This document shows, piece by piece, positions 14,320 through 31,474 of a DNA stretch of 38,976 nucleotides (position 1 is the first letter of the stretch; each line of letters starts with the position of its first letter). The DNA is from Candidatus Kuenenia stuttgartensis (GTDB lineage: Bacteria; Planctomycetota; Planctomycetia; Pirellulales; UBA1268): positions 1 through 38,976 of the forward strand of contig CAMDDJ010000027.1 of assembly GCA_945891385.1 (NCBI GenBank), read 5' to 3'. A program made the position numbers and the translations under genes. Under the pieces are notes generated by a model. That model searched no databases, was not told where the DNA came from, and saw nothing but the letters and a program-made list of their open reading frames with translations.

Positions 14320-15540
14320 ATGAACCAGCCCGCAGCCAGGCCCTTGGTGGCCGTGATCCTCGACGCAGCCCGCCCGTACGATCGGCTGATCATCGGGGGC
14401 GTGGCCCAGTATGTCCGCGAGCACCAGGCCTGGAGCCTCTACGTCGAAGAGGATCCGCTCCAGAAACTGCCCGACCTCGCCCACTGGCGTGGCCAGGGGA
14501 TCATCGCCAACTTCGACGATCGACAGGTCGCCCAGGCGATTCGCGGGCTGTCGATCCCGATCGTCGGCGTCGGCGGGGGTTACGGTTGGTACGAGCCGGA
14601 GTCGGGCATTCCGTATATCTTCACCGACAACCAGCGGATCGGGCAGCTGGGCGCGGAGCATCTGCTCTCGTGCGGCTTCGAGCACCTGGCCTTCTATGGC
14701 TACCCGCGAACCTCGACGAATGCCTGGTCGGAAGAGCGAGCCGCGGCGTTCGATGCCTGCTGTCGGGCGGTTCCCGGCCGCGACTGCCGCGTCTTCACCG
14801 GCCGCCTGGGCAACGCCCGCCGCTGGGGCGAACTCCAGGAGGAGCTCACCGCCTGGCTTGCCGACCTGCCGAAGCCCGTCGGCATCATGGCCTGCAACGA
14901 CGTGCGGGCCCGGCACGTGCTCGAGGCCTGCCGCACGCTCGGCCTCAAGGTGCCGCGGGACGTGGCCGTGCTCGGCGTGGACAACGACGAGATGATCTGC
15001 GAGCTGACCGATCCCCCGCTCTCGAGCATCGACCAGTCGGCCCGGCGGATCGGCTACGAGGCCGCCGCCGCTCTCGACCGGCTGATGCGGCAGGCGGCGG
15101 GTGCGGCCGCCGAGTCGCCGCCGCTGCGGGTGGTCGTGCCTCCGATCGGCGTTGTGTCTCGCACCTCGACCGACACGATGGCGACCGAAGACGAGGCGGT
15201 GCTCCATGCGCTCGAGCGGTTGCGGGCCGACCCCTGGCATCGGCCCGACATCGCCGCGCTGGCCCACGAGGCCTGCGTCTCGCGGTCGACGCTTGAAAAT
15301 CGGTTCAAGGCTGCCGTGGGCCGTTCGATCCACGAGGAGTTCGTGCGGCTCAGGCTCGCGGGATTACGGCGGCTCGTGACCGAAACCGATCTCCCGCTCA
15401 AGGCGATCGCCACCCGCACCGGGTTTCGCTCGGTGCAATACATGACCACGTTTCTCCATCGCCACACGGGCCTCACGCCGGCGCGGCTGCGGGCCGTGGA
15501 GCGGGGACGGGTGGAGAAGCCGGCGGAGGGCGAGTCGTGA
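14320..15540 (+). CDS. XylR-type transcriptional regulator (LacI-like sensor plus AraC HTH)
   Basis: This is a 406-residue DNA-binding regulator. Residues about 8-275 form a periplasmic-binding-protein-like sugar sensor (LVAVILDAARPYDRLIIGGV at the start; IPYIFTDNQRIGQLGAEHLL and VAVLGVDNDEMICEL further on) without the N-terminal LacI HTH. Residues about 300-395 form an AraC-type double HTH (IAALAHEACVSRSTLENRF; LKAIATRTGFRSVQYMTTFLHRHTG). This architecture is that of the E. coli xylose activator XylR and is common in planctomycetes. The ATG at 14320 has GAGG about 10 bases upstream, so I shortened the longer frame that starts at 14248. It is divergent from the aldolase-oxidoreductase pair and upstream of a PfkB kinase, so it probably controls these genes in response to a sugar. 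The ligand is unknown. Confidence 0.93.
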   Translation: MNQPAARPLVAVILDAARPYDRLIIGGVAQYVREHQAWSLYVEEDPLQKLPDLAHWRGQGIIANFDDRQVAQAIRGLSIPIVGVGGGYGWYEPESGIPYIFTDNQRIGQLGAEHLLSCGFEHLAFYGYPRTSTNAWSEERAAAFDACCRAVPGRDCRVFTGRLGNARRWGELQEELTAWLADLPKPVGIMACNDVRARHVLEACRTLGLKVPRDVAVLGVDNDEMICELTDPPLSSIDQSARRIGYEAAAALDRLMRQAAGAAAESPPLRVVVPPIGVVSRTSTDTMATEDEAVLHALERLRADPWHRPDIAALAHEACVSRSTLENRFKAAVGRSIHEEFVRLRLAGLRRLVTETDLPLKAIATRTGFRSVQYMTTFLHRHTGLTPARLRAVERGRVEKPAEGES

Positions 15541-15594
15541 AGCGGAAGGTGGTTTCCGTCTGTCGTTTCGCTTTGCCCGAGTCTGATTTCTTTC

Positions 15595-15767
15595 GATCGC
15601 ATTGAGGTCATGTGTAGCACCGGCTCGGGGTCGGCAAAAGTCGGTCGGAGGACCGACTCCTTCGGATTGTCGCGGGTGAGGATACGCCCCTGTGCTCCTC
15701 GAGCGTTCGCCGACCCCTCGCCTCCTCTCGCGGTGTAGACACTCGTCGCTACGGCTATCTCAAATGC
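15595..15767 (+). repeat. dispersed ~175-bp repeat, copy A
   Basis: This segment recurs in opposite orientation at 31300-31474. The core from 15614 to 15725 differs from copy B by four substitutions and a one-base indel in my hand alignment. The outer parts are more diverged but still align (GATCGCATT at the left; a TCGCT...ATCTCA block at the right). The core contains a perfect hairpin, AGTCGGTC-GGAG-GACCGACT (15639-15658), and a second small stem (15674-15689). It occupies most of the 258-base gap between the regulator and the kinase. No protein is encoded. It could be a miniature transposable element, a REP-like element or a structured RNA. Confidence 0.8.
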
Positions 15768-15798
15768 TTTCCCGCGTCTCCAGTCTGGTCGCTTTGTC

Positions 15799-16803
15799 AT
15801 GACTCACTCACCGTCGTTCCGCTCGTCTGCTGCTGATCGCATCGCCGCCTCGGCCCGCGACTTCGACGTCGCCGTGATCGGCACGATCGTGGCCGACGTC
15901 CTCGTGCGGCCGGTGCCGCTCGGCGAACCGGTCGGGGGCGGCCGGTTGTTTCATGTCGAGCCAATCGAGGTCACGACGGGTGGGATCGTCTGCAATTCCG
16001 GAATCGGCCTCGCCACGCTCGGGCTGCGGGTCGCGGCGATGGGGCTAGTGGGCGGCGACGCCTGGGCCGAGCTGATCCGCATCCGGCTGGCGGCGGCCGG
16101 CCTGGACGTGACCGCCGTCGAGACCGCTCAGCACGCGGCCACGAGCACCACAGCCGTCCTGATCGATCCGACCGGTGAGCGAAGCTTCGCCCATCATGTC
16201 GGAGCCTGTGCCAGCCTCGACCTCGCCTTTGTGCAGCGGCACCTCCCCGCGTTCGCCCGCTCAGGCTGGGCGGTGCTCGGCTATGCGGGGCTCTTGCCGG
16301 GCCTGGAGCCAGCGCTGGGCGAAGCGGCCGCGGCTCTCAGGCAGGCCGGCTGCAAGGTGGCGATCGAGACCGGGGGCTCAGGCGGGCGGCTCGAGGACGT
16401 GGCGGCCGCGCTGCCGCATGTCGATCTCTATGTGCCGAGCCTGGGTGAGGCCGCGGCCCAGACCGGGTGCGCTGAACCCCGGGAGATCATCGCCCGCTAC
16501 CGATCGTTCGGGGCCGGAGGAATCGTCGGGGTGAAGTGCGGCTTAGCCGGCACGCTCCTGAGCCCCGCGGCGAATGCCCTCGTGCAGATCCCCTGCCTAC
16601 CGCCCCCCGGGCCCGTGGCCGACACGACCGGCGCCGGCGACGCCTTCCTCGCCGGCCTGCTCGCGGGCATCGTCCGCGGCATGTCGCCCCGCGAGGCTGG
16701 GCTCGTCGGCGCGGCCAACGCCGCCTGCTGCGTCACGGGCGTGGGCGCGACGGCCGGGCTGCGGTCGTTCGCCGAAACGCTCACCGTCGCCGGGCTCACG
16801 TGA
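15799..16803 (+). CDS. PfkB family carbohydrate kinase
   Basis: This 334-residue cytoplasmic sugar kinase belongs to the PfkB (ribokinase) family and transfers phosphate from ATP to a sugar or sugar-like alcohol. The first family signature is GGIVCNSGIGLATLG (61-75). The second is DTTGAGDAFLAGLL (275-288), with the catalytic base Asp281 and the anion-hole GAGD. Length and order match the family. The ATG at 15799 lacks a clear ribosome binding site. The gene follows the XylR-type regulator on the same strand, separated by repeat copy A. In sugar pathways of the KDG, tagatose or inositol type a PfkB kinase acts just before an aldolase, and an aldolase-like gene lies nearby. Substrate assignment is inference only. 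Its last 307 bases are overlapped in antisense by the giant surface-protein gene. Confidence 0.93.
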   Translation: MTHSPSFRSSAADRIAASARDFDVAVIGTIVADVLVRPVPLGEPVGGGRLFHVEPIEVTTGGIVCNSGIGLATLGLRVAAMGLVGGDAWAELIRIRLAAAGLDVTAVETAQHAATSTTAVLIDPTGERSFAHHVGACASLDLAFVQRHLPAFARSGWAVLGYAGLLPGLEPALGEAAAALRQAGCKVAIETGGSGGRLEDVAAALPHVDLYVPSLGEAAAQTGCAEPREIIARYRSFGAGGIVGVKCGLAGTLLSPAANALVQIPCLPPPGPVADTTGAGDAFLAGLLAGIVRGMSPREAGLVGAANAACCVTGVGATAGLRSFAETLTVAGLT

Positions 16804-19800
16804 CCCCAGGAAATGCCGGCAGCCAGACTGCGAAATGCCTGCAGTCGTGAGTGTTCGTCCAAGCTCTCGACCATGGGTTCGACCATGACATTCACCTGGG
16901 AGGTTTCACGCTGAGGGCTCGCGGCTGGACCATCAGCACTATATTCGCTGCCCAGGGCGGTGACGCTGCTATGCTGCCCGCCCCCCATCGCAATCAGGTC
17001 AAAGGCATTCACAACCCCGTCGTAATTGACATCCCCCGCAGCCCAGTCGGCGGGGGTTCCTCTCCCGTAGTGGCCCCGAGCCGAGAGCTGGACAAGGTCA
17101 AAGGAATCGAAGTCGAAGTCGAGATCGAGATCGCCCACCGTGGTGACGGCCAAGGATGCTCCGCCGGATGGGTGAACAAGGTATCCGACCGCTCGTCCAG
17201 CCGGGGCCGAGGCCAACGTCGAGGATCCGATCCCGCGGCTCGTGATCCAGGTGCCACCATCGCGGCCGGCGATGATCGCCGAGCGTAGACTCGCCGCGTC
17301 GGTGACACCAGGAGCGATCTCGAGCCGAGCGCTGCCAATGTCGAGTCTGGCGTCGTCGGCCAGCGCGAGTCCCGCCAGGGCCACCGTCTGCGGGCTCACG
17401 TCAAGAACGACTGTCGCGCCCCTGGCGATCGCCAGCGGGCCGGCCCCGAACGCGGCCGCATTGCGGACAAGGAGCGTTCCGGCGACGACTGAGGTGCCGC
17501 CGACATGGGTGTTGGCCCGACTCACTTCCAGGGTGCCCCCGCCCGCCTTCGTGAGCGTGTCGCTGCCTGAAAGCGTGACGAGCAGGGGTTCCATCTCGCC
17601 ATCCGGCACACGTACCACGATATCTGAGGAGAGGCCCCCGCGAGGTATATCGTCAATCGCTTGTTGCACGCTTCGCAGCCGTTGTGTTGCTTGGAGTATC
17701 ACCTCGGCCGGGTCGCTGATGCGGTACAACCCATCGCTGATGCCATGAAGGGCTGTGCGCGAAAATTGAAAGGCCTGCCTCTTGAATTCGTTCACTGCCA
17801 TGAGCAGCGTCGAGGGGCTCGCTCCCCTCTGCAGGGCTTCGAGCCGGAGTTCATCGAGCCGGCTCGCCACGTCGAGTCCGGCCATGGCCGCCATATCGGC
17901 GGCCTTCGCGGCGAGGTCGCCCACGAGCGGATCGCTGTCGGGATTTGCCCGCTTCCAGGCGTCGGCGATCGCCCGGCCGAAGCCCTCCTTGAGGGTCTCG
18001 GCTGTCGGCCGCTCGCGGAAGCTGCCGGCAAAGCCCTTCAGGAGCTCGAGTTCGGCCGCCAGGCTGTTGGGCACGTCGTCGGGCAGGAGGTTCTGCAGCA
18101 CGCCGGAGACCAAATCCCAGGCGAAGTGGAGCTTGACATGCGCGAGATAGGCGTTGGCTGCCTCGCGGGTGGCAGGATCGTCAAAAGAGGTTGCCTCCTG
18201 GAGAACCCGCAGCGGATCCTGAGTGAGGTAGTCAAAGCGGCCGAGTTCGAACACCTCGGCGATGAAACCCCGAACCTCTTCCGCTGGAACGCCGGCCGTC
18301 ACGGCCAGGTTGTGCAACGTGGTCAGCGGCGTGACCATGCCCCCCAGCGGCCCCGCGAAGGGCAGCTCCAGCTTCTGATCCATGCTCGTGTCGGTGCCGC
18401 CGAAGACCACGAGCTGCCCTTCGTCGGCGTCGATGCGGCCGTTGCGGTTGCGGTCGAAGGTGCGGAGGTCGACGTCGAGGGTGTAGCGGCCGTCGGCGTC
18501 ACTCGTCGTCACCGGCTCGAGCGAGTCGATGCGGCCGTTGAAGTTGGCATCGAAGAACACTGTCGCGTCGGCGATGTGGCCGTTCGAGACGCTGCCGCTG
18601 CCGTAGCGGCCCCCGATGCCGAACTGGAAGATCGGGATCTCGGCCAGCCGTCGCTCCCAGACCGTCTCCCAGATCGAGTAGAACCCAAGATCGATTCCTA
18701 TTTGCACCCTCGACTTCACGTAGGCGATCAGTTCACCAGAGAGCTCGAAGAGATTCAACGGATTTGAGATCCGGTCGGTGATCTCGAGGCCGCGGATCTT
18801 CCCGTCGGACGTGCCGGCGATCTCCCCTTCGTCGAGCAGATCGAGGCTCACGGCGGCTTCGAGGCCACCCGTGATGTCGGCCCGCACGACCCGGGCGGAA
18901 TAGCCGAGCCCCGCCCCCATGCTCGCGTCCATGGTGAACTCGGGAATGTCGTCGCCACTCTTGTCGAGGTCGGCCACGTAGAAGCCGTTGAACACCTTCC
19001 AGGAGCTGCTGGCGGCGAAGCCGTCCCTCCGCCACTGGCTCAGGCCGAAGGTGTCGAAGCCGAAGCCCAGGTGCGCTTCGACCTCGTAGCCCCCCTCGAT
19101 CACGCCCTCAATGCCGCCGTAGATCGGGAAGGTCTTGTCGATCTCCGACGACATTCCCATGCCTGGCATCCGCCATTCGAACAGACTCACGTCCTGGCCG
19201 AACAGCAGCTTGACGACGTTTGCCGGCTCTTCGATGAGCGGAATCGTGATCCCCAGTTCGTCGAGCTGATCCATGACCTTGGCAAACGCATTCTTGGAAT
19301 TGCCGTCCTCGTCCTTGCCCCCCTGGTCGGCCTGCTCCTTCGTGTCGTCGCTGAGCCCCTCGGCGTCCGCGTCCACCTCCTCGTCAGCCGGATCGGCGTC
19401 GTCGTCGCCGGCATTCCAGAGCGGCAGCTCATAGCTGCCGAAGCTGACGTAGAAGCCCTCCTCGTCACTGAGCCTTTCGAGGTCGCGAACGAGATCCATG
19501 ACGCCCTTGAGCATATCAAGGAACTCGACCGTTTCCTCGACGCTCGCGGCGAGCCGCTGGCCACGGTCGCGGTCGATCGTGGCGTAGAAGCCGGCAAACC
19601 AGCGGGAGAGGTCGATGGTCGAGGTTTGGCCGTCCCCGTCGACGTCGAAGGTGTCCTCCAACCCGACTGTCGCGAAGATCTTCGTGTCCTTGTAGAGCGC
19701 GTCGACGAGCGGGTAGAGCGGCTTGAGAATGCCGTCGAGTCCGTCCACGATCGGACTGAGCATGTCGGTGATGTAGCTGCCCAGGTCAAGCCGGATGTCG

Positions 19801-22800
19801 TCGAAGTAGAACGTCGTGGCACTCGCCGGCTCGTCGGCCTGCTCCTGATTGGAGTAGTCGAACAGCGGGAGCAGGGCCGAGAGCTCGAACTTGAAGGAGG
19901 GGATCGCCGCCGACCCGTTCACGCTCGTCGTCACGCCGAACGACATCGCCGCGTTGCCGCTGAAGGAATACTGAAAGACCTCCTCGAGGTCGAGGCTGCT
20001 GCTCGTGAGCTCCGTGTAGCTCAGGCTGCCATCCTCGCCGGCGCCCCCGTTGACGAAGAGCTCGAAGCTCACGTCGAGCTCCGTGCTCGCGGGCTCGTCG
20101 CCGATCTGCACGTTGTCGTTGACGCTCGGCTGGTTGACGGCGTCGAGCTGCATGAAGCCCAGGCCGCCCGTCAGGCTGAAGTTCTCCGAGAGTCCGGCGT
20201 TGAAGTTGGCCGTCACGAACGTCTTGTCGTCGGCCGTGTTCAGGTAGATGTCGCCGCTGCGGGGAAACACGAGTTCGAGCCCCGCGTCGTAGCTGAAGAA
20301 GGCGTCGAAACTCCCCTCGGTTTGGAAGCCCAGACCCGGAAGACCGAAGTCGGACGCGAGTGGCACGCTGAGGACGGTGTAGGCGTCGGAGAAGCCGAAC
20401 CGCACCACCACGGCCGGGTTGGTGGTCGACGTGTCCTTCATCGACAGGCTCACCGAGATCGCATCCTCCGACACGCCGAGCGCGGCGGCGATGTCACGGG
20501 TGATGAGCCGGCTCAGCCGCGACGGCGTGGGCGTGCCGACCTGCCGGATGCTGTTGGTGAGATCGTTGATGAACTTTCGCAGGCCCTGCCCGGTCTTGCC
20601 CGTGAGGCTGCCCACCATCGGCAGCGAGAGGCTGTCGATGCCCTCCTGGAGGCTCGTCAGCGACGACTGCATCGACGTGGCGGTGGTGTCCGCAAGCTCG
20701 TAGTCGAGCACGTCGACACTCTGCACGAAGTTCGTGAAATGACCCGAGTCGCCCGAGTGACTCGCGGTGTCGTAGTCGGTGTCGGAGCTGGAGAAGCGGT
20801 AGGCCAGCTGCGCTGCATGGATCCCGGTCTTCGCCGTGCTGCCGCTGCCGTCCTCGATCTTGTAGTCGTCGAAGGCCCGCACGCTGATCTGCTGCGGGGT
20901 GAACCAGTTGTCGCGGGTGAAGGTCACCGTGGTGCTGAAGGCCGCGCTCGACGTGCCGAGCTGGCGGCTCGCGCCGCCGGCGACCTTCTCGGTGATCGTC
21001 ACGGTCACGGTGCTCTTCGGCTCGCTCGTCAGCGCGAGCTGGTAGGTGGCGCTGGAGCCCGACTCCTTGACGAACACCCGCTCGCCGGAGGTCATCACGA
21101 GGATGCCGGCGACGTCGTTGTTGATGATCTTCACCGTGGCGGTCGTCCGTGAGCTGTCGGAACCGACGGTGTAGCCGTCGCCGCTCGCGAGCGCGACCGT
21201 GATCGATTTGCTCGTGCTGTCGGCCAGGAAGTCGTCGATCGGCACCACGAGCACGTCGCTCTGCGCCTGGCCCGGCGGGATCCGCACCGTGCCGCTGACC
21301 GACGTCGGCGTCTGGGCGATCTTCCCCAGGCGGTCACCGACGCTGGAGCCGTAGGGAAGGCTCGAGTCGAGGTCCACCGCGGTGACCGAGTAGTTGACCA
21401 CCAGCCCCTTGGAACCGACGGAGCTGGCCGTGGCGTCGGAGAGCCGGATGCGGAACCGTCCTGGCCTACCCTCCTCGGCTCCGTCGCTGATTCGCTCGAG
21501 CGTCGCGGTGGGCAGGTCGTTGTCGGTGATCACGATCGAGACCGTGTCGACCGCGAGCCCGTCGAACCGGGCGTCGTCGCTCGTGGTGGCGAACGTGAGG
21601 CTGCTCGTGCTCACGTCCTCGACCACGCTGTCATCCACCGCGAAGAGGCCGACCGTTTGCAGGGTCGCCCAGTTCGCCGGGGTGAAGACGAGCGTCTCAC
21701 TGCGGCCGACGCTGCGGTCATTGATCGTGAACTGCCTGTCGCTCGGCGAAAGCGTGACCACCACGTCGGCCGTCGGCTCGGCAGTCAGGCTGAGGTTGAT
21801 GAAGCCGTTGCCGGCCTTGGCGATGCTGCCCTGCTGCAACTCCACCTTCACACCGGACGTATCGTTGTCCTGGAGGAGCAGGGTCTCGGCCACCGGCCGA
21901 CTGAGGGCGATCTCGAGGTAGTTGATCCGGGTTGCCGAGGACGAACCAGCGTCGATCGTCAGCCGGCCGTCGCTGACGGTGACCAGGGCCTTGAAGAAGC
22001 CGAACTCATTGGCCGCGAGGGACCGGGCACTGAAGTACGAGACGCCTTCGATGTTGAGTGTGTGGGTGCCTGTGAACTCGGCATCACCGATCGAGGCGGA
22101 TACCTCGTACACGCCGTTGTCCAGGGCGATCTCCCAGGATTGGCCGTTTTTGATGCCGATGAGCGTGTCGAGGCTCTGGTCGGCGTTCTTGTTGCGATCG
22201 CGACCCATATCGGTGTGATCGGTCGACCAGCCATAGCTCCATCCTTGGTTCCTGTCACCGAACACCTGGCCGCTGTCGGCAAGATAGCCGTCCGGGGTCT
22301 CGGCAGAACCGAGCTGGAAGTTGATCCTGGCCACCAGGGATTCCCTGCCCGCGGAGGCGATCTTGTAAAACCGGTCGCTGCTGGTGGTGCGGGCATGAAT
22401 CTCGACGCTCTGGCTGCCGTCCACCAGGCGGTCGTCGACCGGCACGATCTGGAAGGCCTGCGGGACCTTCCAGTTTTCCGGGGTGAAGGTCAGCGCGATC
22501 CGGGCGGTCGGATCCTCGGGGCTGCTGGCGGGAATCTGCAGGCGCGCCTCGCTCGCGTCATTCGTTTCGAGGTACAGCGTCACGGAGTCGTCAGGCTGGC
22601 TCGTGAGCCTCACGTACCTCGTCAGGCTCGCACCCCCCTCCGCGAGGGTCACCCGCGATCCGTCGGCGGGCTCGAATCCCTCGCCGTCGAGGAAGAATGC
22701 GATCCCGGCCGCGTCGTCGTCGGTGATCGTGAGCCGGGCATTCGTCGGCAGATCGACGCGGCTGGTGAGGCCCGTCAGGGGCGAGGTGGACGACGTCAGG

Positions 22801-25800
22801 TCGAGGCCGAGCGTGACCACTTCGACACGCACCGGCACCGACCCCGCCGCCTGGCCGCTCTCGACCGAAAGACTGTTCACCAGCACGAGCGTCGCCGTAT
22901 CTCCCGTGGAATCGTTCCTGTAGACAAGCTCGGTGCCGGCAGCGAGTTCGACGCTCGAACGGTTGGTGCTTCCGAGGGTCAGCGAGGCGAGATAGCGGTC
23001 CGTACCCGAGGCCGCATCGGTGGTCAGTGGCGCGTTGAGCGTCATCGTCACGCTGCGGTCGAGAACCTGGTAGAGATCCCCCTGGACGCTGGTAACCAGA
23101 TCGACGACCGACCCCGAGACGCTGCTCTGGCTGTTCGCGTCCACCCAGGCGAGGGTGCCGGTGACGCGAGCGCCACGATCACGGTGGAGCGTCACACTCT
23201 CACCGAGAGTGAACCGCGCGACTGTCGATCCCTTGCTGCCGCTGATTTCGACACTCCGGCCGAGGGCGAGCACCGTGCCCGCGGCCAGGGTCACGGCCTC
23301 ACGGTCGGTGGTGCCGAGGGCCAGTTCGAGTTGCGTGCCACCGTCGGTCGCGTCGGTCTGGCTCCTGACCACGAGCTCCACTCCGCGAGCGGCGAGCAGC
23401 CGGGCCACGAGCGTCTCGTCGTCCTCTTCGATCGAGTCATCGAGGCCCTGCACCGTGACGGATGCGGAGGTGCTGCCTGCCGCGATCAACAGATGAATGC
23501 CATCCACCCGGCTGAAGGCCTCGGCGGGAATCGTCTCGGTCACCGTGTCGGCGTTGTTATTCCGCGGCCGCTCCCACTGGAGGGCGACGGCCGGGGCGGC
23601 CGTGTTAAACGACGTGTAGTCGAGCGTGACCGCGACGAAGTCGCCGCGGGTCAGTTGCAGCGATTCGGTGCTCCAGGTGGCCTGGGTGTCGATCCATTGA
23701 TCGATGACCGTCGTGCCATCGAGCACGAGCCGCACGCCCCCGCGGACCGGCACCGTGAAGGTGTAGCTGCCGGTCTCGGGGACCGCGATGTAGCCCGACC
23801 AGGTGGTCGTGAAGCTGCCGCCCGCTGCGGGGAAGGAGGAACTGGTCTCGTCGATGCCGTCGGCATCCACGCTGGTCGTCTCAACGCCGGTGCCGCCGGT
23901 GCTCTTGATCTCGAGATAGTTGATCCGGGTCCTCTTCCTGGCCGCCGAGCCTTGGTCGAGTGTCAGCCGACCATCGCTGACCGTGACGGTCGCCGTCGTT
24001 CGAGCAAACTCGTTGGCAGACAGTTGCTGCTCGCTGAAGAACGAGACCCCCTCGACGTTGAGCGTGTGAGTACTGGAGAACTTTGCGTCGCCCACGGAGG
24101 CGCTGACTTCATACACCCCATTAGGCAGCGAAACTTCCCAGGTCGCGCCCTCTTGAAAATGCATGTGTGTGTCGAGCAGCTGATCGGAATTAATGCTATG
24201 AACACGTCCGAGGTCGGTGTGGTCGCTCGACCAGCCATACGTCCGGCTGTTGCCGCGATCGCCATACACGCTCCCGCTGTCCGCCAGGAAGCCGTCCGGC
24301 GTCGCGGCGTCCGGGTGTTGGAAGTTGATCTTCAGATCTGTGGTTTCCATTGCCTCAAACCGCGCGAGTCCGACCAGCGCCTGGGCGTTCTGGCTGGGCG
24401 TGACGACGAAGTCGCGGGCATTGAGCTGCCGGTTGCTCTGCTCGAGATCGAAGAAGACGAGTGTGTCCTGGGCGGCGGGCTGCGAGAGCGTGATCGTGAA
24501 CTCGGCCGAGTCGCTGCCAGACTCCTCGATGGTCGTCCGGGTCGGGGCCGAGATCTGGGCGATCGGAGCCTGGGCGTTCTGGGCGGCAGCCAGGTCTTCG
24601 TTGGCGGTGGCGGTGTCGTCGTCGAGCACGAGCACCGTCACGCTCGGCGTCAGCGGCTTGTAAAGGGTGTCGGTCGTCGTGATCGTGAAGTCGAGCGACC
24701 GCTCGATGTCGCCATCGATGCTCGTGTCGTCCCGGCCCTGCAGGAGCAGTTCCTGCACCTGATCCCAGTTGTCGGGCGTGAACACCAACTCGATCGCCGC
24801 GGCGGTCGGGCTGCCGGCGAGCGTCGTGCGGATGTCGCCACTGGTGGCCGTGTTGGTCTCGAGTCGCAGCGTGACCGTGTCCGTCGGCCGGCTCGTCAGG
24901 CGGATGCCCAGGCGGGTCTTGCTGCTTCGGGCCTCGTCGCTCTCGCTCACGGTAAAGCGGCCCGTGCTCGTCCAGCCGCTGCTCGTTGCGTCGAGATTGC
25001 TCCAGGCCGCCAGAAACTCCACGTCCGCTGAGTCGTCGTCAGCGAGTTCGGCCGTGCTGGTGCTCGACGCCCCGCCCAGGCTGTAGAGGCCGCTGTCGAC
25101 GAGCGTGAGCGTGAGAGTCTCGTCGTTCTCGGCCGTGAGGTCGTCGAGCACGACCAGCGGCACGCCGACCTGGCTGGCGCCCGCGGGTAGCCGCAGGCCG
25201 TAGGTCGGCACGGCGGCGAAGCCCGCCGTATTGGACGAGTTGCTCGAGAGCACGGCTGCCGGAGCCGAAGAGACGTCATTGGCCAGCGAGTTGTTGAGCG
25301 GCAGGCTGCTCACGAGACCCGAGCCGCTCGCCGTCTCGCCGAGCATCGATGCCCGGATCTCGTCCTGCGTGCGGGCGGCATTCCAGATCGCCACGCCCCT
25401 TACAGCGCCGTCGAGCCGCTCGCCGTTCAGCGACCGGCCCAGCAGGTTGCTCGACCGGGCCAGCCGGGAGAGCCCGGAGGCGAGCGTCTGCCGGGCGACG
25501 AGCTCGCCGTTGACGTAGAGACTGGCGACCTTGTTTCCGTCGATGCTGAAGGCGAGGTGGTTCCACTCGGCGACGGCCAGCGGCACGTCGCTCGTCAGCC
25601 GGGCCAGCACGGCCCCGCTCGACGAACGCAGCTGCAGCCGCGGCTTGTTCGTGCTGTCGGGGAAGCCGAGCCAGATCTGGTGCTGGCCGCTCGCGTTCGA
25701 GAACTCGAGCACCGTGTCGCCGTCCTGGGCCTTGTCGCGCCGCACCCAGGCCTGCCCGCTCAGCTCGCCCGCGTCACTGACGGTGGTGAAAGTGCCGAGG

Positions 25801-28800
25801 TCGGCGTAGGCCGCGTCGCCCGATCCGGAGTTCGCGAGCACGAGTGGATGGTAGGCGGCGTCGGGCGAGTGCCGCACGTCGGCCGCGGTGCCGGCGAGCG
25901 ACATGCCGTTGCCCGCGGCGAGCGTGTAGAGCAGCTCCACCGGACTCGAGGTCGCAACCGCCCCCAGGCCGAGCTCGAAGCCGAACCGGCTCGTCGTGCC
26001 CTCGGTGCCGTCGATGGCCGCGACCGACGCCGCCGGCTGGGCCGCGAGCACCGTGCCCCCCTCCCACAGGGAGAGCTCCAGCTCCGACGACCAGCTCGAC
26101 GGCACCACTCGCTGCTGTGTGGTCTTGTCGCGATACCGTGAGTCGCCGCTCGTGCTCGTGAGCCGGACAGTCGTCGCCTGATTCTCGGTCACGCCCGTGA
26201 GCGTGATTCGCTGCGGCTGCGTCCAGTTGCTGCCGGTGAAGGTCAACTGCCCGGCCGAGAGGCTGCCGCTGGTGGTCGTGAGGGTCACCGTCACGTCGGT
26301 CTTCGGCTGGCTCGTCACGTGCACGTCGAAGCTCGCCACTTGGCTGCCGTCGGTCAGCCGGGCCCGCACGGTCGACTGGCCGGTGCGGTCGGCCGGGGTG
26401 GTGACGACGGCCGACTCGAAGGCCTCGCTGTCGGTGATCGTGAGGGTGGCCTGCTTGGCCGAGGCGTCGACGTTGTAACGCTGGAAGGTGAAGTTCTGAT
26501 TGTCTTGCTCGACATTCGTCCGCAGTTCGAGCACGACCGTCTCGTCCCCCTCGCGGATCGAGTCGGCCAGGGCGGCGATGTAGATCCTGGCCTCGGTCGC
26601 GCCGGTCGGGATCACCACCAGATCCTGGGCTGAATAACTCGTGGTGCTCAGGGTCGCCTGGGGGGCGGTGTAGTCGGAGTTGCGCGTGGCGGTGCCCCCG
26701 GTGATCGCATACTTCACCCGCAGGCCGGCTGGAGCGGGGCGATCGCCCGTGGTGATCGTGAACCAGCCGAGGTCCCCCTCGTCGCCCGCCCCCTCTTTGG
26801 GGTTCTGTCCGGCCTGAACGCTCAACACGAACGGGCTGTCGGCGATCGAAATGGTCTGGCTGTCGTTGCTCACGCCGTAGCCGGTGTTGGATCCGAGCTC
26901 GAGCGTGATCGATTCGGTGGCCTCGGCGTAGCTGTCGGTGAGCACCTGTACGTAGTAACTCTTGACGTTCGCGAGGCTGCCGGCGGCCTGGTCGGGCTTC
27001 CAGACCGTCGTCGCGAAGCTGTCGTTGAGGCCGATCAGCCCCGTGCCGATCTGCGTGCCGGCCGACGCGTCGTCCCAGAGGGCGTAATCGTCGCCCACGA
27101 CGCCGCTGCCGACCCGGCGCTGGGCGAGGCTCGTGTCGACCGTGGAGTTCGAGGTCTCCGAGGTGCTTGCGAGCTTCACGTTCAAATCCGAGCTGCTCGA
27201 CTTGTTGGCGAAGAGCTGGAAGCCCAGGGCCCTGGTGTCGCTCGTCGCCGACTCGGTGCGGTTGACGCCGGCGGCGAGGGCCTTCGAGAGAAACATGGCG
27301 CTCGCGGGGATCACCTGGTTGCTGGTGGTGCCGCCGCTGCCGTCGGGCCGATCCCAGAGCAGCCGGGCCGCGGCCGTGCCGCTCTTCTCGTACATGTCGA
27401 ACTGCACCCAGACGACATCCCCCTTGGTGAGGCTCACGGCCGACGTGCTGCCGGTCTTCGAACCGTCGGACCAGTTGGAGATGGTGGCCAGCGCGGTCCC
27501 ACTGCTGTCGTTGCGCCTGACGGTGAGCTTGTGGCCGTCGTCGCTCGAGGTGCGGAAGGTGTAGCTGCCGGTCTCAGGAATGCGGACGTAGGTCTCCCAC
27601 CGCATGGCGAAGGAGTCGTAGAAGCCCTGGTCGGAGAACGAGGAATTCGACTCGTCGATGCTGCCGGTGTCGAAGATGAGCGTGTCGGCGGAGGTGCTGA
27701 AGTCGGAGTTGCTCGCGGGCAGGGTCTGCGAGGAGCCGGCAGTGAACGGGGCTCGAATGAACTGATAGGCCCCCTGCCCCAGGCTCAACAGCGGCTCGTC
27801 GTCGAAGATCCAGACCTGGCTCGTGGCGTTGTCGCCGATGCCGAAGATGTTCTCGCTGCCGTCGCTGCCGAGGGTCGCCTTGATCGTGCGGGGCGACTGC
27901 CAGGTGGTGTTGTTCCTGGGCGTGAAGGTGAGGGTGACCGTCTGGGTGTTGCGGACGTAGAGTTTGCCGTCGCGGAAGTAGCTGCTGCCGCCGCTGACGG
28001 ACATGTCGTAGTCGGTGCCGGCGGTGGCGGTGCCGCTGAAGGTGATCGGGATGTCGATCAGCGGCGTGTCGTTGCGGATGTCGATGTAGTCGCTCGGCAC
28101 CTTGCGATCGAAGGAGATCGTCATCCTGGCAGCCTGGCCGTTCTCCAGCCCGTTGACGGTATCGCTGCTCCCCAGATCAGCGAACTCGGCGGTGAACTCG
28201 ACGCCGTCGCGGCCCCACTCGGTGACGTAGGCCTGGATGTCGTTGTCGTGATCGACGTCGTCCCACTTGCCGTCGGTCTGGATGCCCAGGTAGTCCTGAT
28301 TCTTGGAGTTGTCTGGCTGACGGCTCGACCAGTTCGCATAGACGCCGGAGGGCGTGCTGCCGTTGCTGCGGAACACCACGCCGTCGTCCCCCGACCCGGG
28401 GGCTTTCCAGACCCACCGCCCCTCGGAGGTTTCGTCGGTTCCTCCGGTGTGGGCCGTCCTCGTGATCGCACTGCCGCCGCGGGAGTAGTTCTTGATGAAG
28501 TCGTTTTCGCCGCTCGAGGTGATCGTCGCCAGGTAACCCTGGGTGCCGAGTTGGTTCAGGCTCGTGCCGCGCGATCCGTCATAGGCATCGCTCCAGTCGA
28601 TGTCCTCCTGCGTGAAGGCGTAGTAGTGACCATTACCCCAGTACGGCTTGGCGTTGCCGGTGTTGACCGACAGGGCGAGCCGTGGCTCGAGCGACTGGAT
28701 GTGGAGACTCGTCGATGTCGCTCGGGACGCATGATTCGGTCGCTTCCGCCGTCGAGGCAGGGCGGCGGGGCCGGGACTGTGCCGTCGACGCCGGAACGCC

Positions 28801-28823
28801 CTGTGAACGAACGAAAAGTCCAT
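16497..28823 (-). CDS. giant multidomain adhesin-like surface protein with LEPR motif and dockerin
   Basis: This is an extracellular protein of about 4,108 residues. I chose the ATG at 28823 (GGAGG 8 bases upstream). The basic N-terminus carries LEPRLALS (residues 45-52), a planctomycete export/sorting motif. Modules in order, by base position: C-type-lectin-like (about 28610-28200); first PA14 (27730-27280); Calx-beta-like stretches (27270-25900); LamG/concanavalin-like (25860-25310); more Calx-beta; malectin-like copy 1 (24345-23900); second PA14 (23875-23500); malectin-like copy 2 (22335-21905); further Calx-beta; a long unrecognised beta-rich region (20700-18600); Ca-binding-like DxDxDG/DxNxNG loops (about 19630 and 18430); one autotransporter-associated beta-strand repeat (17590-17400); dockerin-like repeats (17135-16980). 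The final about 100 residues overlap the kinase gene and are Ala/Pro/Ser-rich. Function in adhesion or glycan binding is inferred. Confidence 0.92.
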   Translation of the reverse strand: MDFSFVHRAFRRRRHSPGPAALPRRRKRPNHASRATSTSLHIQSLEPRLALSVNTGNAKPYWGNGHYYAFTQEDIDWSDAYDGSRGTSLNQLGTQGYLATITSSGENDFIKNYSRGGSAITRTAHTGGTDETSEGRWVWKAPGSGDDGVVFRSNGSTPSGVYANWSSRQPDNSKNQDYLGIQTDGKWDDVDHDNDIQAYVTEWGRDGVEFTAEFADLGSSDTVNGLENGQAARMTISFDRKVPSDYIDIRNDTPLIDIPITFSGTATAGTDYDMSVSGGSSYFRDGKLYVRNTQTVTLTFTPRNNTTWQSPRTIKATLGSDGSENIFGIGDNATSQVWIFDDEPLLSLGQGAYQFIRAPFTAGSSQTLPASNSDFSTSADTLIFDTGSIDESNSSFSDQGFYDSFAMRWETYVRIPETGSYTFRTSSDDGHKLTVRRNDSSGTALATISNWSDGSKTGSTSAVSLTKGDVVWVQFDMYEKSGTAAARLLWDRPDGSGGTTSNQVIPASAMFLSKALAAGVNRTESATSDTRALGFQLFANKSSSSDLNVKLASTSETSNSTVDTSLAQRRVGSGVVGDDYALWDDASAGTQIGTGLIGLNDSFATTVWKPDQAAGSLANVKSYYVQVLTDSYAEATESITLELGSNTGYGVSNDSQTISIADSPFVLSVQAGQNPKEGAGDEGDLGWFTITTGDRPAPAGLRVKYAITGGTATRNSDYTAPQATLSTTSYSAQDLVVIPTGATEARIYIAALADSIREGDETVVLELRTNVEQDNQNFTFQRYNVDASAKQATLTITDSEAFESAVVTTPADRTGQSTVRARLTDGSQVASFDVHVTSQPKTDVTVTLTTTSGSLSAGQLTFTGSNWTQPQRITLTGVTENQATTVRLTSTSGDSRYRDKTTQQRVVPSSWSSELELSLWEGGTVLAAQPAASVAAIDGTEGTTSRFGFELGLGAVATSSPVELLYTLAAGNGMSLAGTAADVRHSPDAAYHPLVLANSGSGDAAYADLGTFTTVSDAGELSGQAWVRRDKAQDGDTVLEFSNASGQHQIWLGFPDSTNKPRLQLRSSSGAVLARLTSDVPLAVAEWNHLAFSIDGNKVASLYVNGELVARQTLASGLSRLARSSNLLGRSLNGERLDGAVRGVAIWNAARTQDEIRASMLGETASGSGLVSSLPLNNSLANDVSSAPAAVLSSNSSNTAGFAAVPTYGLRLPAGASQVGVPLVVLDDLTAENDETLTLTLVDSGLYSLGGASSTSTAELADDDSADVEFLAAWSNLDATSSGWTSTGRFTVSESDEARSSKTRLGIRLTSRPTDTVTLRLETNTATSGDIRTTLAGSPTAAAIELVFTPDNWDQVQELLLQGRDDTSIDGDIERSLDFTITTTDTLYKPLTPSVTVLVLDDDTATANEDLAAAQNAQAPIAQISAPTRTTIEESGSDSAEFTITLSQPAAQDTLVFFDLEQSNRQLNARDFVVTPSQNAQALVGLARFEAMETTDLKINFQHPDAATPDGFLADSGSVYGDRGNSRTYGWSSDHTDLGRVHSINSDQLLDTHMHFQEGATWEVSLPNGVYEVSASVGDAKFSSTHTLNVEGVSFFSEQQLSANEFARTTATVTVSDGRLTLDQGSAARKRTRINYLEIKSTGGTGVETTSVDADGIDETSSSFPAAGGSFTTTWSGYIAVPETGSYTFTVPVRGGVRLVLDGTTVIDQWIDTQATWSTESLQLTRGDFVAVTLDYTSFNTAAPAVALQWERPRNNNADTVTETIPAEAFSRVDGIHLLIAAGSTSASVTVQGLDDSIEEDDETLVARLLAARGVELVVRSQTDATDGGTQLELALGTTDREAVTLAAGTVLALGRSVEISGSKGSTVARFTLGESVTLHRDRGARVTGTLAWVDANSQSSVSGSVVDLVTSVQGDLYQVLDRSVTMTLNAPLTTDAASGTDRYLASLTLGSTNRSSVELAAGTELVYRNDSTGDTATLVLVNSLSVESGQAAGSVPVRVEVVTLGLDLTSSTSPLTGLTSRVDLPTNARLTITDDDAAGIAFFLDGEGFEPADGSRVTLAEGGASLTRYVRLTSQPDDSVTLYLETNDASEARLQIPASSPEDPTARIALTFTPENWKVPQAFQIVPVDDRLVDGSQSVEIHARTTSSDRFYKIASAGRESLVARINFQLGSAETPDGYLADSGQVFGDRNQGWSYGWSTDHTDMGRDRNKNADQSLDTLIGIKNGQSWEIALDNGVYEVSASIGDAEFTGTHTLNIEGVSYFSARSLAANEFGFFKALVTVSDGRLTIDAGSSSATRINYLEIALSRPVAETLLLQDNDTSGVKVELQQGSIAKAGNGFINLSLTAEPTADVVVTLSPSDRQFTINDRSVGRSETLVFTPANWATLQTVGLFAVDDSVVEDVSTSSLTFATTSDDARFDGLAVDTVSIVITDNDLPTATLERISDGAEEGRPGRFRIRLSDATASSVGSKGLVVNYSVTAVDLDSSLPYGSSVGDRLGKIAQTPTSVSGTVRIPPGQAQSDVLVVPIDDFLADSTSKSITVALASGDGYTVGSDSSRTTATVKIINNDVAGILVMTSGERVFVKESGSSATYQLALTSEPKSTVTVTITEKVAGGASRQLGTSSAAFSTTVTFTRDNWFTPQQISVRAFDDYKIEDGSGSTAKTGIHAAQLAYRFSSSDTDYDTASHSGDSGHFTNFVQSVDVLDYELADTTATSMQSSLTSLQEGIDSLSLPMVGSLTGKTGQGLRKFINDLTNSIRQVGTPTPSRLSRLITRDIAAALGVSEDAISVSLSMKDTSTTNPAVVVRFGFSDAYTVLSVPLASDFGLPGLGFQTEGSFDAFFSYDAGLELVFPRSGDIYLNTADDKTFVTANFNAGLSENFSLTGGLGFMQLDAVNQPSVNDNVQIGDEPASTELDVSFELFVNGGAGEDGSLSYTELTSSSLDLEEVFQYSFSGNAAMSFGVTTSVNGSAAIPSFKFELSALLPLFDYSNQEQADEPASATTFYFDDIRLDLGSYITDMLSPIVDGLDGILKPLYPLVDALYKDTKIFATVGLEDTFDVDGDGQTSTIDLSRWFAGFYATIDRDRGQRLAASVEETVEFLDMLKGVMDLVRDLERLSDEEGFYVSFGSYELPLWNAGDDDADPADEEVDADAEGLSDDTKEQADQGGKDEDGNSKNAFAKVMDQLDELGITIPLIEEPANVVKLLFGQDVSLFEWRMPGMGMSSEIDKTFPIYGGIEGVIEGGYEVEAHLGFGFDTFGLSQWRRDGFAASSSWKVFNGFYVADLDKSGDDIPEFTMDASMGAGLGYSARVVRADITGGLEAAVSLDLLDEGEIAGTSDGKIRGLEITDRISNPLNLFELSGELIAYVKSRVQIGIDLGFYSIWETVWERRLAEIPIFQFGIGGRYGSGSVSNGHIADATVFFDANFNGRIDSLEPVTTSDADGRYTLDVDLRTFDRNRNGRIDADEGQLVVFGGTDTSMDQKLELPFAGPLGGMVTPLTTLHNLAVTAGVPAEEVRGFIAEVFELGRFDYLTQDPLRVLQEATSFDDPATREAANAYLAHVKLHFAWDLVSGVLQNLLPDDVPNSLAAELELLKGFAGSFRERPTAETLKEGFGRAIADAWKRANPDSDPLVGDLAAKAADMAAMAGLDVASRLDELRLEALQRGASPSTLLMAVNEFKRQAFQFSRTALHGISDGLYRISDPAEVILQATQRLRSVQQAIDDIPRGGLSSDIVVRVPDGEMEPLLVTLSGSDTLTKAGGGTLEVSRANTHVGGTSVVAGTLLVRNAAAFGAGPLAIARGATVVLDVSPQTVALAGLALADDARLDIGSARLEIAPGVTDAASLRSAIIAGRDGGTWITSRGIGSSTLASAPAGRAVGYLVHPSGGASLAVTTVGDLDLDFDFDSFDLVQLSARGHYGRGTPADWAAGDVNYDGVVNAFDLIAMGGGQHSSVTALGSEYSADGPAASPQRETSQVNVMVEPMVESLDEHSRLQAFRSLAAGISWGHVSPATVSVSANDRSPAVAPTPVTQQAALAAPTSPASRGDMPRTMPASRPARKASPAPVVSATGPGGGRQGICTRAFAAGLRSVPAKPHFTPTIPPAPNDR

Positions 28824-29189
28824 GAGATAGTCCTCCGGCGTCCTCCGAGGTGATCGTCCACACCCTGTCACGCGCAAATAGAGCGAAACAACTAATAAGC
28901 ATCAAGCGGCCGTTTATGAGATTTTGGCGTGCCCGCGAGGGTGGGGCATTCCGCCCACGCAAAGGGGAATCGCTGCGCTCTCACACCGGCCTTTCCCACA
29001 GAGCCTGGAGCACTTCCTGGTCGGTGCGGATGCCCGAGGCCGTATGGAAACAAGTGGCTGAAAAGGAGGGTCGCCGGGCTCTAGGCCGGCGAATCTGCGC
29101 TGCTATGACGCGGGGCTTTTTCTACGATACGGGCATCGTGGCCCGGCCGCCCTCATCCCCGGCGCATGGCCCCGGCGAGCAGGAGACCC
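28824..29189. other. divergent spacer between giant protein and patatin genes
   Basis: This 366-base gap has no convincing gene. Its left part is AT-rich and holds the candidate promoter of the giant gene. Its right part contains an inverted repeat, TCGCCGG (29071-29077) and CCGGCGA (29086-29092) with an 8-base loop. It also holds a short GTGGG/CCCAC repeat near 28945. A promoter for the patatin gene is expected here but I cannot place it. Confidence 0.4.
28877..28905 (-). promoter_or_regulatory. candidate sigma70-type promoter of the giant gene
   Basis: Read on the minus strand, TTGATG (28900-28905) and TCTATT (28877-28882) are separated by exactly 17 bases in an AT-rich stretch. The predicted transcript start near 28870 would leave a leader of about 45 bases with a strong GGAGG site before the ATG at 28823. 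Each hexamer matches consensus at 4 of 6 positions, so this is only a candidate. Confidence 0.4.
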
Positions 29190-31274
29190 ATGCGATTCAT
29201 GTCGTCGATCGGCCTGGCCCTCTCGGGCGGCGGCTTCCGGGCCGCGCTCTACCATCTCGGGGTGATTCGCTACTTCCGCGATTCGGGCGCGCTTGCCCAC
29301 GTGGAAGACATTGCCGCCGTCTCCGGGGGCAGCATCGTCGCGGCCCACCTGGTGCTCAACTGGGACCGCTACACCGGTGACGACGCCGCCTTTGCCGAGG
29401 CCGCCGGTGAGGTGATCCGGTTCGTGCAGTTCGACCTCAGGAATCACATCGTTCGCCGGCTGCCACTCACCTTCCCGCTGCGGATCGCGGGCCGGGTGAT
29501 CGGCAGCGACACGGCCGAGCTCTCGCCGAATGCGATGCTCGAGCGGTATTACCGTGAGTTTCTCTACGGCGATCGGCGGCTGTTCGAGCTGCCCGAGCGG
29601 CCCGGCCTCCACATCCTCACGACGAACGTCAGCGACGGCACCCTCGCCGCCTTCAACCGCCGCGGGCTCCACGTGCTCCGCCGCGAGCAGGGTACGCGGC
29701 AGGAGGATCCATTTCAGCACGTGCCTGGCACGATGGCGACGGTCGCCAAGGCGGTTGGGGCATCGTCGGCCTTTCCCGGATTCTTTCCCCCGGTGCGGGT
29801 GAACGCCGCCGATCTGGGCGTGGGCGAGGGGCAGTTTCCCGGCGAATCCTTCACCGACGGTGGCGTGTATGACAACCTCGGCACGCGGGCCTTCACCTGG
29901 CTGCAGCGGCTCAAAGATGTCACCTACGACCGGATCATCGTCAGCGACGCGGGCAAGCCCTTTCAGATCCTGGGTCGCAACCCGATCGGCTTTCTGGCCC
30001 AGTCGATCCGAGCCACCGACATCCTCTGGGATCGCGTCTGGCAGCTCGAGCGGGAGAACTTCGGCGACCAGAACGGCTTCTTCTTCGCCCCGATCACCCG
30101 CGTGGTCGATCCGGCGGAGGATCCCCACGTGCTCCATCCGGTCGTGCAGGCCCAGATCTCGTCGCTCCGCACCGACCTCGACCGGTTTGACGATCTGGAG
30201 GTGTCGGCCCTCGTGCGGCACGGCTACGAGGTGGCCCGGGCCACCCATCGGCACATCGCCGATCGGAGCGATCTGCCGATCCACGAGGGACCCGTCTGGG
30301 ATCCCTTCCCTGGGCGTAGCGGGCTCGAGCAGGCCGTGGGTGGCGGCGACGTGGCTCGGGCGAGCACGGCTCGGACCAGCGGCACGTGCCCGGTGGCCCG
30401 GCTGGCCGACACCCTCCGCCACGGAAGCCAGCGGCGGGTCTGGAGCACGCTCCTGAGCACGCGAGACTGGCCGAGTTACGTCTACGCCGTGCTCGGCCTG
30501 ATCCTGTTTGTCTGGCTGCCGATCCGATTCTGGCAGGTGCATCGCCACGCCAAGTTGCTCACCAGCGTGATCAACTCGATCTCCGAGGGAGATCCCGACA
30601 TTCGGCTCGTGCTCGACCTCGTCGATGGCGATCCCTCCCGCGACTGGAATCCGGTGACGATCAAGCCTGCGGCGGAATCGACGCCAGCCACCGGCTTCAC
30701 AGGCATCGATGTGCTCTCGTTCAGCCGCATCATGGATCTGCGGCAGGCCGACGCTGAAGGCGGTGAGCAGGTGCGGGTGCGAGACCGGCTCGTGCTGCGA
30801 TTCGACGACTCCGCTGAATCCCACCGGCATGTGGTGTTTCACTCGCTCCTTCCCGCGGCTGACATTTCCTTTCGCCAGCCAGCCGGCCAGCCGCCGGTCG
30901 AGATCCGCAAGGTCAAGGCCGCCGACGGCAAGGTCGGGGATGCCATCGAGGTGCACCTCAATCTTTCGGGCGTGCCCGCCGGGGAGCCGGTCACGCTCGA
31001 ACTCGCCACGGTGATGAAGGCCCCGATTCTCGCGGACGGCAAGGTGCTGCTCGACCTGCTCGCCCCGGCCGATCTCCTGACGGTCTGGCTGCTCTTCCCC
31101 GAGGATCACCCCTACCGCAGCTACCGGCTGCTCCGGTATCCGGAGCACGACCCCGATGCCGCCGAGCCGATGACCCCGCGGTACACGATCGACCACCCGT
31201 ATGGCCAGCTGATCGGCTGGTCGGTAATCAAGCCTGCCCAAGGGCTCGTGTATGAATGCCGCTGGACGCCGTGA
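29190..31274 (+). CDS. patatin-like phospholipase with membrane segment
   Basis: This 694-residue lipid acyl hydrolase-like protein starts at the ATG at 29190, which has AGGAG 4 bases upstream; an upstream ATG at 29166 lacks one. The oxyanion-hole motif GGGFRA is at 13-18. The nucleophile elbow is GGSIV (46-50), with Ser48 where the usual GxSxG has a final Gly replaced by Val. FTDGGVYDNLG supplies the catalytic Asp near residue 223 in a DGG motif. The catalytic region covers about 1-370. A hydrophobic helix (YVYAVLGLILFVWLPI, about 430-446) follows, then a C-terminal domain of about 240 residues that I do not recognise. The protein is probably membrane-anchored and may act on membrane phospholipids or stored lipid. 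It is divergent from the giant surface protein gene. Confidence 0.88.
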   Translation: MRFMSSIGLALSGGGFRAALYHLGVIRYFRDSGALAHVEDIAAVSGGSIVAAHLVLNWDRYTGDDAAFAEAAGEVIRFVQFDLRNHIVRRLPLTFPLRIAGRVIGSDTAELSPNAMLERYYREFLYGDRRLFELPERPGLHILTTNVSDGTLAAFNRRGLHVLRREQGTRQEDPFQHVPGTMATVAKAVGASSAFPGFFPPVRVNAADLGVGEGQFPGESFTDGGVYDNLGTRAFTWLQRLKDVTYDRIIVSDAGKPFQILGRNPIGFLAQSIRATDILWDRVWQLERENFGDQNGFFFAPITRVVDPAEDPHVLHPVVQAQISSLRTDLDRFDDLEVSALVRHGYEVARATHRHIADRSDLPIHEGPVWDPFPGRSGLEQAVGGGDVARASTARTSGTCPVARLADTLRHGSQRRVWSTLLSTRDWPSYVYAVLGLILFVWLPIRFWQVHRHAKLLTSVINSISEGDPDIRLVLDLVDGDPSRDWNPVTIKPAAESTPATGFTGIDVLSFSRIMDLRQADAEGGEQVRVRDRLVLRFDDSAESHRHVVFHSLLPAADISFRQPAGQPPVEIRKVKAADGKVGDAIEVHLNLSGVPAGEPVTLELATVMKAPILADGKVLLDLLAPADLLTVWLLFPEDHPYRSYRLLRYPEHDPDAAEPMTPRYTIDHPYGQLIGWSVIKPAQGLVYECRWTP

Positions 31275-31299
31275 CGGCGGCGGCGACAGGGTCTCGAGC

Positions 31300-31474
31300 G
31301 CGTCTGAGATGGCTGCAGCGATGATTGAACAAACTGAGCACGGGAGGCGAGGGGGTCGGCAAACGCTCGAGGAGCATAGGGGCGTATCCTCGCCCGCGAC
31401 AATCCGAAGGAGTCGGTCCTCCGACCGACTTTTGCCGCCCCCGAGCCGGTGCTACGAGTAGATCGAATGCGATC
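31300..31474 (-). repeat. dispersed ~175-bp repeat, copy B (inverted)
   Basis: This is the reverse-complement counterpart of 15595-15767. The conserved core is 31343-31455. The element starts 26 bases past the patatin stop and ends on the stop codon of the convergent membrane-protein gene. It includes the perfect AGTCGGTC/GACCGACT hairpin (31411-31430) and a GGGCG/CGCCC stem (31380-31395). In copy A one base of the second stem has changed from C to T, which keeps pairing as a wobble on one RNA strand. It encodes no protein. Confidence 0.8.
31411..31433 (+). terminator. terminator-like hairpin downstream of the patatin gene
   Basis: AGTCGGTC-CTCC-GACCGACT is a perfect 8-bp stem ending directly in TTTT on the plus strand. 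It could end the patatin transcript about 140 bases past its stop. The same hairpin in copy A points its T-run toward the minus strand, against the local genes, so termination may be incidental to the repeat. Confidence 0.45.

Follow-up and report, generated by a model that had tools for sequence, protein, structure and literature searches.

A hairpin repeat pair on a Candidatus Kuenenia stuttgartensis contig belongs to a dispersed, REPIN/MITE-like repeat family

The sequence analysed here (the window) comprises positions 1-38,976 of contig CAMDDJ010000027.1 from the Candidatus Kuenenia stuttgartensis assembly GCA_945891385.1. It carries two intergenic copies of a hairpin-forming repeat in inverted orientation, and the pair belongs to a repeat family with about 200 copies in this genome. 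A repeat search returned the pair as the longest inverted repeat in the window, with arms of 104 nt at 15614-15717 and 31352-31455 that are 96% complementary; the remaining 18 inverted pairs were of 30-46 nt and 71-76%. When both strands were read, the cores of copy 1 and copy 2 differed by 4 substitutions and one C indel, as an initial annotation of the sequence had reported.

Copy 1 lies on the forward strand between the stop codon (15540) of a XylR-like AraC-type regulator (14248-15540, +; Pfam PBP1_XylR, Peripla_BP_3 and HTH_18) and the start codon (15799) of a PfkB carbohydrate kinase (15799-16803, +; PF00294, E 1.8e-37). Copy 2 lies on the reverse strand between the stops of a patatin-like phospholipase gene (29166-31274, +; PF01734, E 2.4e-21) and a 1073-aa open reading frame (ORF) converging on it (31474-34695, -; without a Pfam match at E <= 0.001). 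The intergenic position assigned earlier to both copies agrees with these gene coordinates. The full extent of copy 1, about 15592-15775, was placed by eye from full-length copies (the 184/185-bp, CTAG-bounded form), its own termini being degenerate. Copy 2 was aligned with the full-length form and extends over 185 bp (31293-31477); its left CTAG end contains the TAG stop of the 1073-aa ORF and its right end reads CTCGAG. Conserved cores were located with a covariance model (R1) at 15621-15724 (+) for copy 1 (48.9 bits, E 4.4e-9) and at 31344-31448 (-) for copy 2 (58.8 bits, E 2.8e-11). A 4126-aa ORF at 16497-28877 (-) has PA14, Laminin_G_3 and weak Calx-beta matches; its 3' end overlaps the kinase gene antisense by approximately 300 bp, and the real end of this ORF may differ.

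The internal structure was read from the sequence of copy 1, all on the forward strand. The P1 stem is formed by GGGGTCGGC (15627-15635) and GCCGACCCC (15709-15717), and shows two-sided changes at four pairs across species. A perfect 8-bp hairpin and a second small stem, with one substitution that preserves pairing as G-U, had been noted in the core, and both were recovered. The former, AGTCGGTC-GGAG-GACCGACT (15639-15658), is confined to a long subtype of the repeat, and in relatives' long copies its place is taken by other sequences. The latter is an exchangeable terminal hairpin, GGGTG-AGGATA-CGCCC (15674-15689, stem GGGTG/CGCCC), in which one substitution gives a U-G pair in copy 1.

The host genome (G000; 3,768,324 bases, 3.77 Mb, in 150 contigs, 93.9% complete) was searched with copy 1 at the DNA level, which returned 78 matching pieces. 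From the loci around these pieces, the 52 cores that matched a pattern were aligned; the pattern missed some places, such as L011. The resulting consensus was GGCTCGGGGGCGGCAAAAGTC[G/T]CGTCGC-(hairpin)-GCTCC[G/T]CGAGCGTTCGCCGACCCC(C)TCGCC. A covariance model trained on 3 host-genome copies and 33 copies from relatives (36 in all) matched all 150 scored host-genome candidates at E <= 1.1e-9; these were scored out of 10,634 first-look candidates, so that 150 is a lower bound. Because every scored candidate matched at this level, the window pair is far beyond chance and is part of a repeat family. Half-element patterns allowing up to 2 mismatches were found 199 times (left) and 210 times (right) in the host genome, and the reversed-pattern controls 0 times. 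The family thus has about 200 copies in the host genome, one per 19 kb. The many intergenic copies that the initial annotation had named as support are therefore present, and its contrary case of only two copies arising by simple local duplication is ruled out by their dispersal. Several copies or arrays sit at host contig starts (e.g. C78:80, C44:69, C22:61, C12:117); the repeats therefore probably contribute to breaks in the draft assembly, which makes the number of copies given here a minimum.

The core is an imperfect hairpin of approximately 80 bp, with two inverted arms around the exchangeable terminal hairpin. The long subtype, to which both window copies belong, has approximately 24 nt more, with the additional hairpin. 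A subset of copies takes a full-length form of 159-185 bp, in which outer arms are added and the CTAG-bounded inverted ends read (C)TAGAGCGCAT and ATGCGCTCTA(G); in the commonest full-length form the terminal inverted repeat is approximately 11 bp. Among 162 distinct pattern-found host copies, the left terminus was present in 22 and both termini in 11, at a spacing of 159, 161, 184 or 185 bp, so terminal inverted repeats, a trait of miniature inverted-repeat transposable elements (MITEs), occur in a subset only. The stop codon of a flanking gene falls inside the left CTAG end of three of the 22 copies with a left terminus (L006, which is copy 2, L184 and L249) and inside the right CTAG end of four (L005, L014, L016, L020). 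Tandem units, with 2-4 scored copies, were found in 22 of 132 clusters, mostly at spacings of 92-110 bp or 196-201 bp, with one further spacing of 125 bp and two of 296 bp. In one relative (G018:C12:83702-84564) four copies are spaced exactly 261 bp apart, a tandem unit longer than any seen in the host genome. A second repeated sequence, like CGATGTCTGACAGGTTCACCGTCGTATGCC, directly follows the host copies at C4:148, C6:70094, C9:70045, C42:23146 and C62:15397.

A single continuous imperfect hairpin can be drawn from the arms if fixed mismatches and one bulged G are allowed. Terminal hairpins in relatives have several different sequences with pairing kept; there, 11 to 73 nt separate the constant parts, long subtype included. 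Two-sided changes were found in 5 of the 19 pairs of the continuous hairpin across 36 aligned copies, and the covariation score was reached by 0 of 500 shuffles; the covariation cells count sequences rather than independent events. One pair, Y-Y', was G-C in 57 of 72 distinct relatives' copies and C-G in the other 15. Both states co-occur in three assemblies, among 45 sources, a number to be taken as an upper bound, some relatives' genomes and named assemblies being probably identical. In the aligned columns the pair was G-C in 27 and C-G in 9 of 36 copies, and in the host genome it was G-C in 92 of 94 copies and unpaired in 2. A G-G state in a first pattern count (2 of 42, plus 1 unread) was discarded, the pattern having matched GGTCGGCAA, which in L014 and L017 belongs to the P1 arm. 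The positions X-X' do not form a Watson-Crick pair (57 T-T, 10 G-G and 5 other in the 72 relatives' copies), and we interpret their association as two adjacent pairs switching together. Covarying stems had been named in advance as support for an RNA or mobile family, and their absence as evidence against it; the stems do covary. As far as aligned sequences can tell, the compensatory changes support the fold, and they fit RNA or single-stranded DNA alike, without telling the two apart.

The host and 59 relatives were searched with the model, and 33 of the 60 genomes gave a match at E <= 0.001. Matches were found in 32 of 37 genomes of one family (f1), across 11 genera, and the 23 other genomes contained one marginal match (E 8.6e-4). 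In a class-wide draw of 297 genomes, host included, 9 genomes matched, all in f1; 268 non-matching genomes were unlisted and their families not seen. A pattern scan of one genome per species over 84,980 species gave at least 101 stretches, and among the matches listed (80) all were titled as planctomycete metagenome-assembled genomes. The exact right-arm pattern had no match in viral contigs, and blastn against 50,697 phage and 72,556 plasmid records had none either, so that phage or plasmid carriage was rejected. A known Rfam RNA was likewise rejected: Rfam gave 0 matches at the gathering cut-off in the window and 4 other loci, and the surroundings of copy 1 gave none even at E up to 10.

The position of the repeats relative to genes was classified for 94 clusters, with 54 in convergent, 33 in tandem and 7 in divergent gaps. 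The other 38 of 132 clusters comprised 12 that overlap a predicted ORF, 20 at a locus edge and 6 without a locus. Repeat-free control gaps (n=129, from ten 20-kb stretches plus the window) comprised 20 convergent, 86 tandem and 23 divergent gaps, giving a Fisher p of about 8e-11 for the convergent excess and 0.03 for the divergent shortfall. With the 12 ORF-overlapping clusters counted as non-convergent, 54 of 106 were still convergent (p about 8e-9). Genes were called with a simple codon-score script. In the window portion of the control run, this script lost the kinase to the giant ORF that overlaps it and wrongly labelled the copy-1 gap convergent, and this gap was excluded from the control; the run behind the 94 classified clusters contains both genes. 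Six repeat-holding gaps were removed from the control. Repeats in tandem gaps were 15 sense and 18 antisense, and the median distance from a sense upstream stop to the repeat was 32 bp. The family therefore prefers convergent gene gaps, without a sense/antisense bias. Similar placement has been reported for ordinary repetitive extragenic palindromes (REPs) by Di Nocera and colleagues (PMC3733652).

The two window sites were compared with their counterparts in relatives. Seven relatives (L274, L276, L280, L281, L283, L285, L288) carry the regulator and the kinase on a single locus, and 0 of these 7 had a repeat between the two genes. The distance from the regulator stop to kinase codon 26 was 20-29 bp in these relatives vs 333 bp here, and each of the 7 has a possible start codon in a 4-bp overlap with the regulator stop. 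G020 was the one relative in which the patatin and 1073-aa genes were seen as a pair; there the two genes share 25 bp and have no repeat, and here they are 200 bp apart with the 185-bp repeat. Every relative found to have the two neighbours together has an empty site (7 of 7 for copy 1 and 1 of 1 for copy 2), and the two window copies accordingly resemble lineage-specific insertions. Insertion in this lineage would be the simplest reading for both, while for single sites loss elsewhere may instead account for the difference. Mobility in evolutionary time is well supported. In a separate observation on gene order, the 1073-aa gene lies directly next to the kinase gene in L274, L281, L283 and L285; here the giant ORF and the patatin gene intervene (16497-31274).

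We consider it probable, at roughly 70%, that the repeats are a non-autonomous mobile DNA family resembling MITEs or REPINs (paired REPs forming a hairpin), whose copies would be moved in trans and tolerated at the ends of genes. The initial annotation had proposed a miniature element, a REP-like sequence or a structured RNA; the mobile REP/MITE-like proposals best fit the copy number, the covarying stems and the insertion-like sites. An enzyme encoded elsewhere would recognise the element by its folded strand or, in the full-length form, by its terminal inverted repeats, and would copy it to new sites. Short cores may also multiply locally, as tandem units of approximately 100 bp. Copies would persist mainly beside the stop codons of converging genes, where insertion would be least harmful. 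If transcribed from either side, the copies would give mRNAs a strong hairpin at the 3' end, with a possible secondary benefit to termination or mRNA stability.

Several observations weigh against this interpretation. The core is better conserved than the ends, which is unusual if the ends alone are recognised, and the core may have a host function. The convergent preference can also stem from a useful role in termination. No clear excess of a target-site duplication was found at the core boundary of 88 single copies. After its patatin gene, G017 (L303) has a repeat in the same orientation, so the copy 2 site may be older than this lineage or have been hit twice. For the fold, the tested structure had itself been derived from the aligned sequences; further pair types were no more numerous than in shuffles (128 of 500); pairs X-C and C-X' were unpaired in 31 of 36 aligned copies; and the terminal hairpins showed a modest gain in stability over shuffles (mean z about -1.1, 67 distinct middles). 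RNAalifold on host copies favours a separate right-arm hairpin (GCUC/GAGC), for which no two-sided change was found, and over 159 copies the continuous hairpin as drawn lies above the unconstrained minimum by a mean of 3.8 kcal/mol (RNA) or 2.7 kcal/mol (DNA). The search for an enzyme also counts here. Y1_Tnp (PF01797), the REP transposase domain, gave 0 matches in the host genome, with the control found in 5 of 14, and this absence is uncertain at 93.9% completeness. The domain is encoded in 9 of 22 genomes of the genus, and no repeat was found beside 11 Y1_Tnp loci of the genus, within flanks of up to approximately 1.5 kb. The sole match at these loci (L269, 11.8 bits, E 0.75) was taken as chance, and loose right-arm pattern matches near L268, L305 and L306 were rejected, having no model match and reading like coding sequence. 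On these two absences, mobilisation by a REP-associated tyrosine transposase (RAYT) was rejected.

A MITE bounded by terminal inverted repeats and moved by a DDE transposase such as an IS630-like enzyme, which would duplicate the TA within CTAG, with core-only copies as derivatives, can be entertained tentatively. The full-length ends (C)TAGAGCGCAT ... ATGCGCTCTA(G), with their approximately 11-bp inverted repeat and fixed lengths, are as expected for such an element, and CTAG at both ends suits a TA duplication. IS630 favours CTAG. The left terminus is also present in 46 of 115 relatives' copies; however, to within 5 substitutions it is missing from 124 of 147 host copies while the cores stay highly similar. 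There were 12 terminus matches in the host genome, of which 10 adjoin a core copy by position and the other 2 (L256, L265) a deleted or truncated core, and none was seen to bound a gene. Retention by the host, as a family of bidirectional transcription terminators or mRNA 3'-end stabilisers, is in our view unlikely. The preference for convergent gaps, the short distance past sense upstream stops, the avoidance of divergent gaps (7 of 94 vs 23 of 129) and the compensatory change in the fold would all suit this role, but both sites in the window were found empty in relatives, tandem gaps account for 33 of 94 clusters and hold them in either orientation, and the consensus has no T-run after the hairpin, as judged by eye without a terminator scan. 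The similar placement of ordinary REPs (PMC3733652) also argues against it.

The remaining alternatives concern the folded molecule itself. Compensatory changes and many invariant residues are consistent with a cis- or trans-acting structured RNA (riboswitch-like or a small RNA). The absence of an orientation bias relative to tandem genes (15 sense, 18 antisense) makes a cis-acting RNA less likely; with the lack of an Rfam match and the existence of tandem units, a structured RNA of either kind is improbable. A dispersed attC-like folded recombination site, serving the integron integrase or another tyrosine recombinase, is more improbable still. The layout is like that of attC sites, with paired arms, an extrahelical base, fixed mismatches and a variable terminal structure, and an integron integrase above the curated cut-off was found in 14 of 22 genus genomes, the host included (L325, G000:C1:229079-230023). 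Against this, clear repeat matches were present at 3 of 15 integrase loci, at approximately 7.7 kb (L327), 4.4 kb (L328) and 10 kb (L332) from the integrase, and at none of the other 12. Repeats at the G012 integrase locus (L329; GCCGAAC...GTTCGG, approximately 85 bp) are cassette-site-like and differ from the hairpin repeats, and canonical R boxes were not seen in the repeat consensus. The repeats were accordingly rejected as integron cassette sites, with the limit that most cassette arrays are out of sight, 9 of the 14 integrase genes being less than 1 kb from the end of a contig. It is also rather doubtful that the repeats form a distinct class of folded-strand mobile element, in which strand and polarity would be read from a long imperfect hairpin with fixed mismatches, an extrahelical base and interchangeable terminal hairpins, and movement would be by a tyrosine recombinase or an unrecognised enzyme, neither RAYT nor DDE.

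For the favoured reading as a mobile REPIN/MITE-like family, REPINs as defined in PMC3116915 are the closest mechanistic model. The traits shared with REPINs and REPs moved by RAYTs, as described in PMC3116915 and PMC3733652, are high copy number, intergenic position, inverted arms with a spacer that form a hairpin, location near stop codons in convergent and tandem gaps, and the occasional supply of a TAG stop. In contrast, the unit here is approximately 80-185 bp vs 20-40 bp for REPs. The conserved GTAG tag is lacking, being found within 16 bp upstream in 15 of 147 host copies (9 of 23 with a left terminus) and 6 of 115 relatives' copies, and no RAYT was found in the host genome or flanked by the repeat at the 11 genus loci. 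CGTC-tagged REPs have been reported without a dedicated transposase (PMC3733652), and in the present repeats, too, CGTC adjoins the hairpin; the variants TGTC and CCTC occur here as they do in that description. They differ in being far longer and in lacking A-T pairs at the stem base and an 8-9-bp stem with CCA tail, when the consensus was compared by eye with the description. For the PVC superphylum, the Results of PMC3733652 name GTAG and not CGTC repeats, and its abstract mentions Planctomycetes for both super-families. We regard the CGTC likeness as a lead and not as a family assignment.

Other repeat kinds were compared by description. MITEs such as ERIC, BOX, RUP and Correia (PMC10969869) are likewise non-autonomous, with a full-length form bearing terminal inverted repeats, a modular interior and stem-loops; the repeats here differ in being GC-rich, in having a core more conserved than the ends, and in that core-only copies outnumber full-length ones. 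The bcr1-bcr18 repeats of Bacillus cereus (PMC3446304), likened by description and not by sequence, are also intergenic and some are MITE-like, some have conserved RNA folds and about half are transcribed; they come from another phylum. Integron attC sites, represented here also by the L329 repeats, share an imperfect hairpin, extrahelical base and variable terminal structure, but the present repeats were not seen in cassette arrays (most of which lie off the contigs), have no gene-linked orientation and lack canonical R boxes. No description of these repeats was found in the open literature on planctomycete REP, MITE or structured repeats or on REPINs, which does not show their absence from print. 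They are a real REPIN/MITE-like family, apparently undescribed in the literature searched, and a variant of known repeat kinds.

REP-like repeats are best known from Proteobacteria, where their spread is credited to RAYT transposases. Here about 200 copies are kept in a genome without a detected RAYT, and the repeats occur in 11 genera within a single family of planctomycetes. What moves REP-like repeats that lack a RAYT thereby becomes a testable question in a defined clade.

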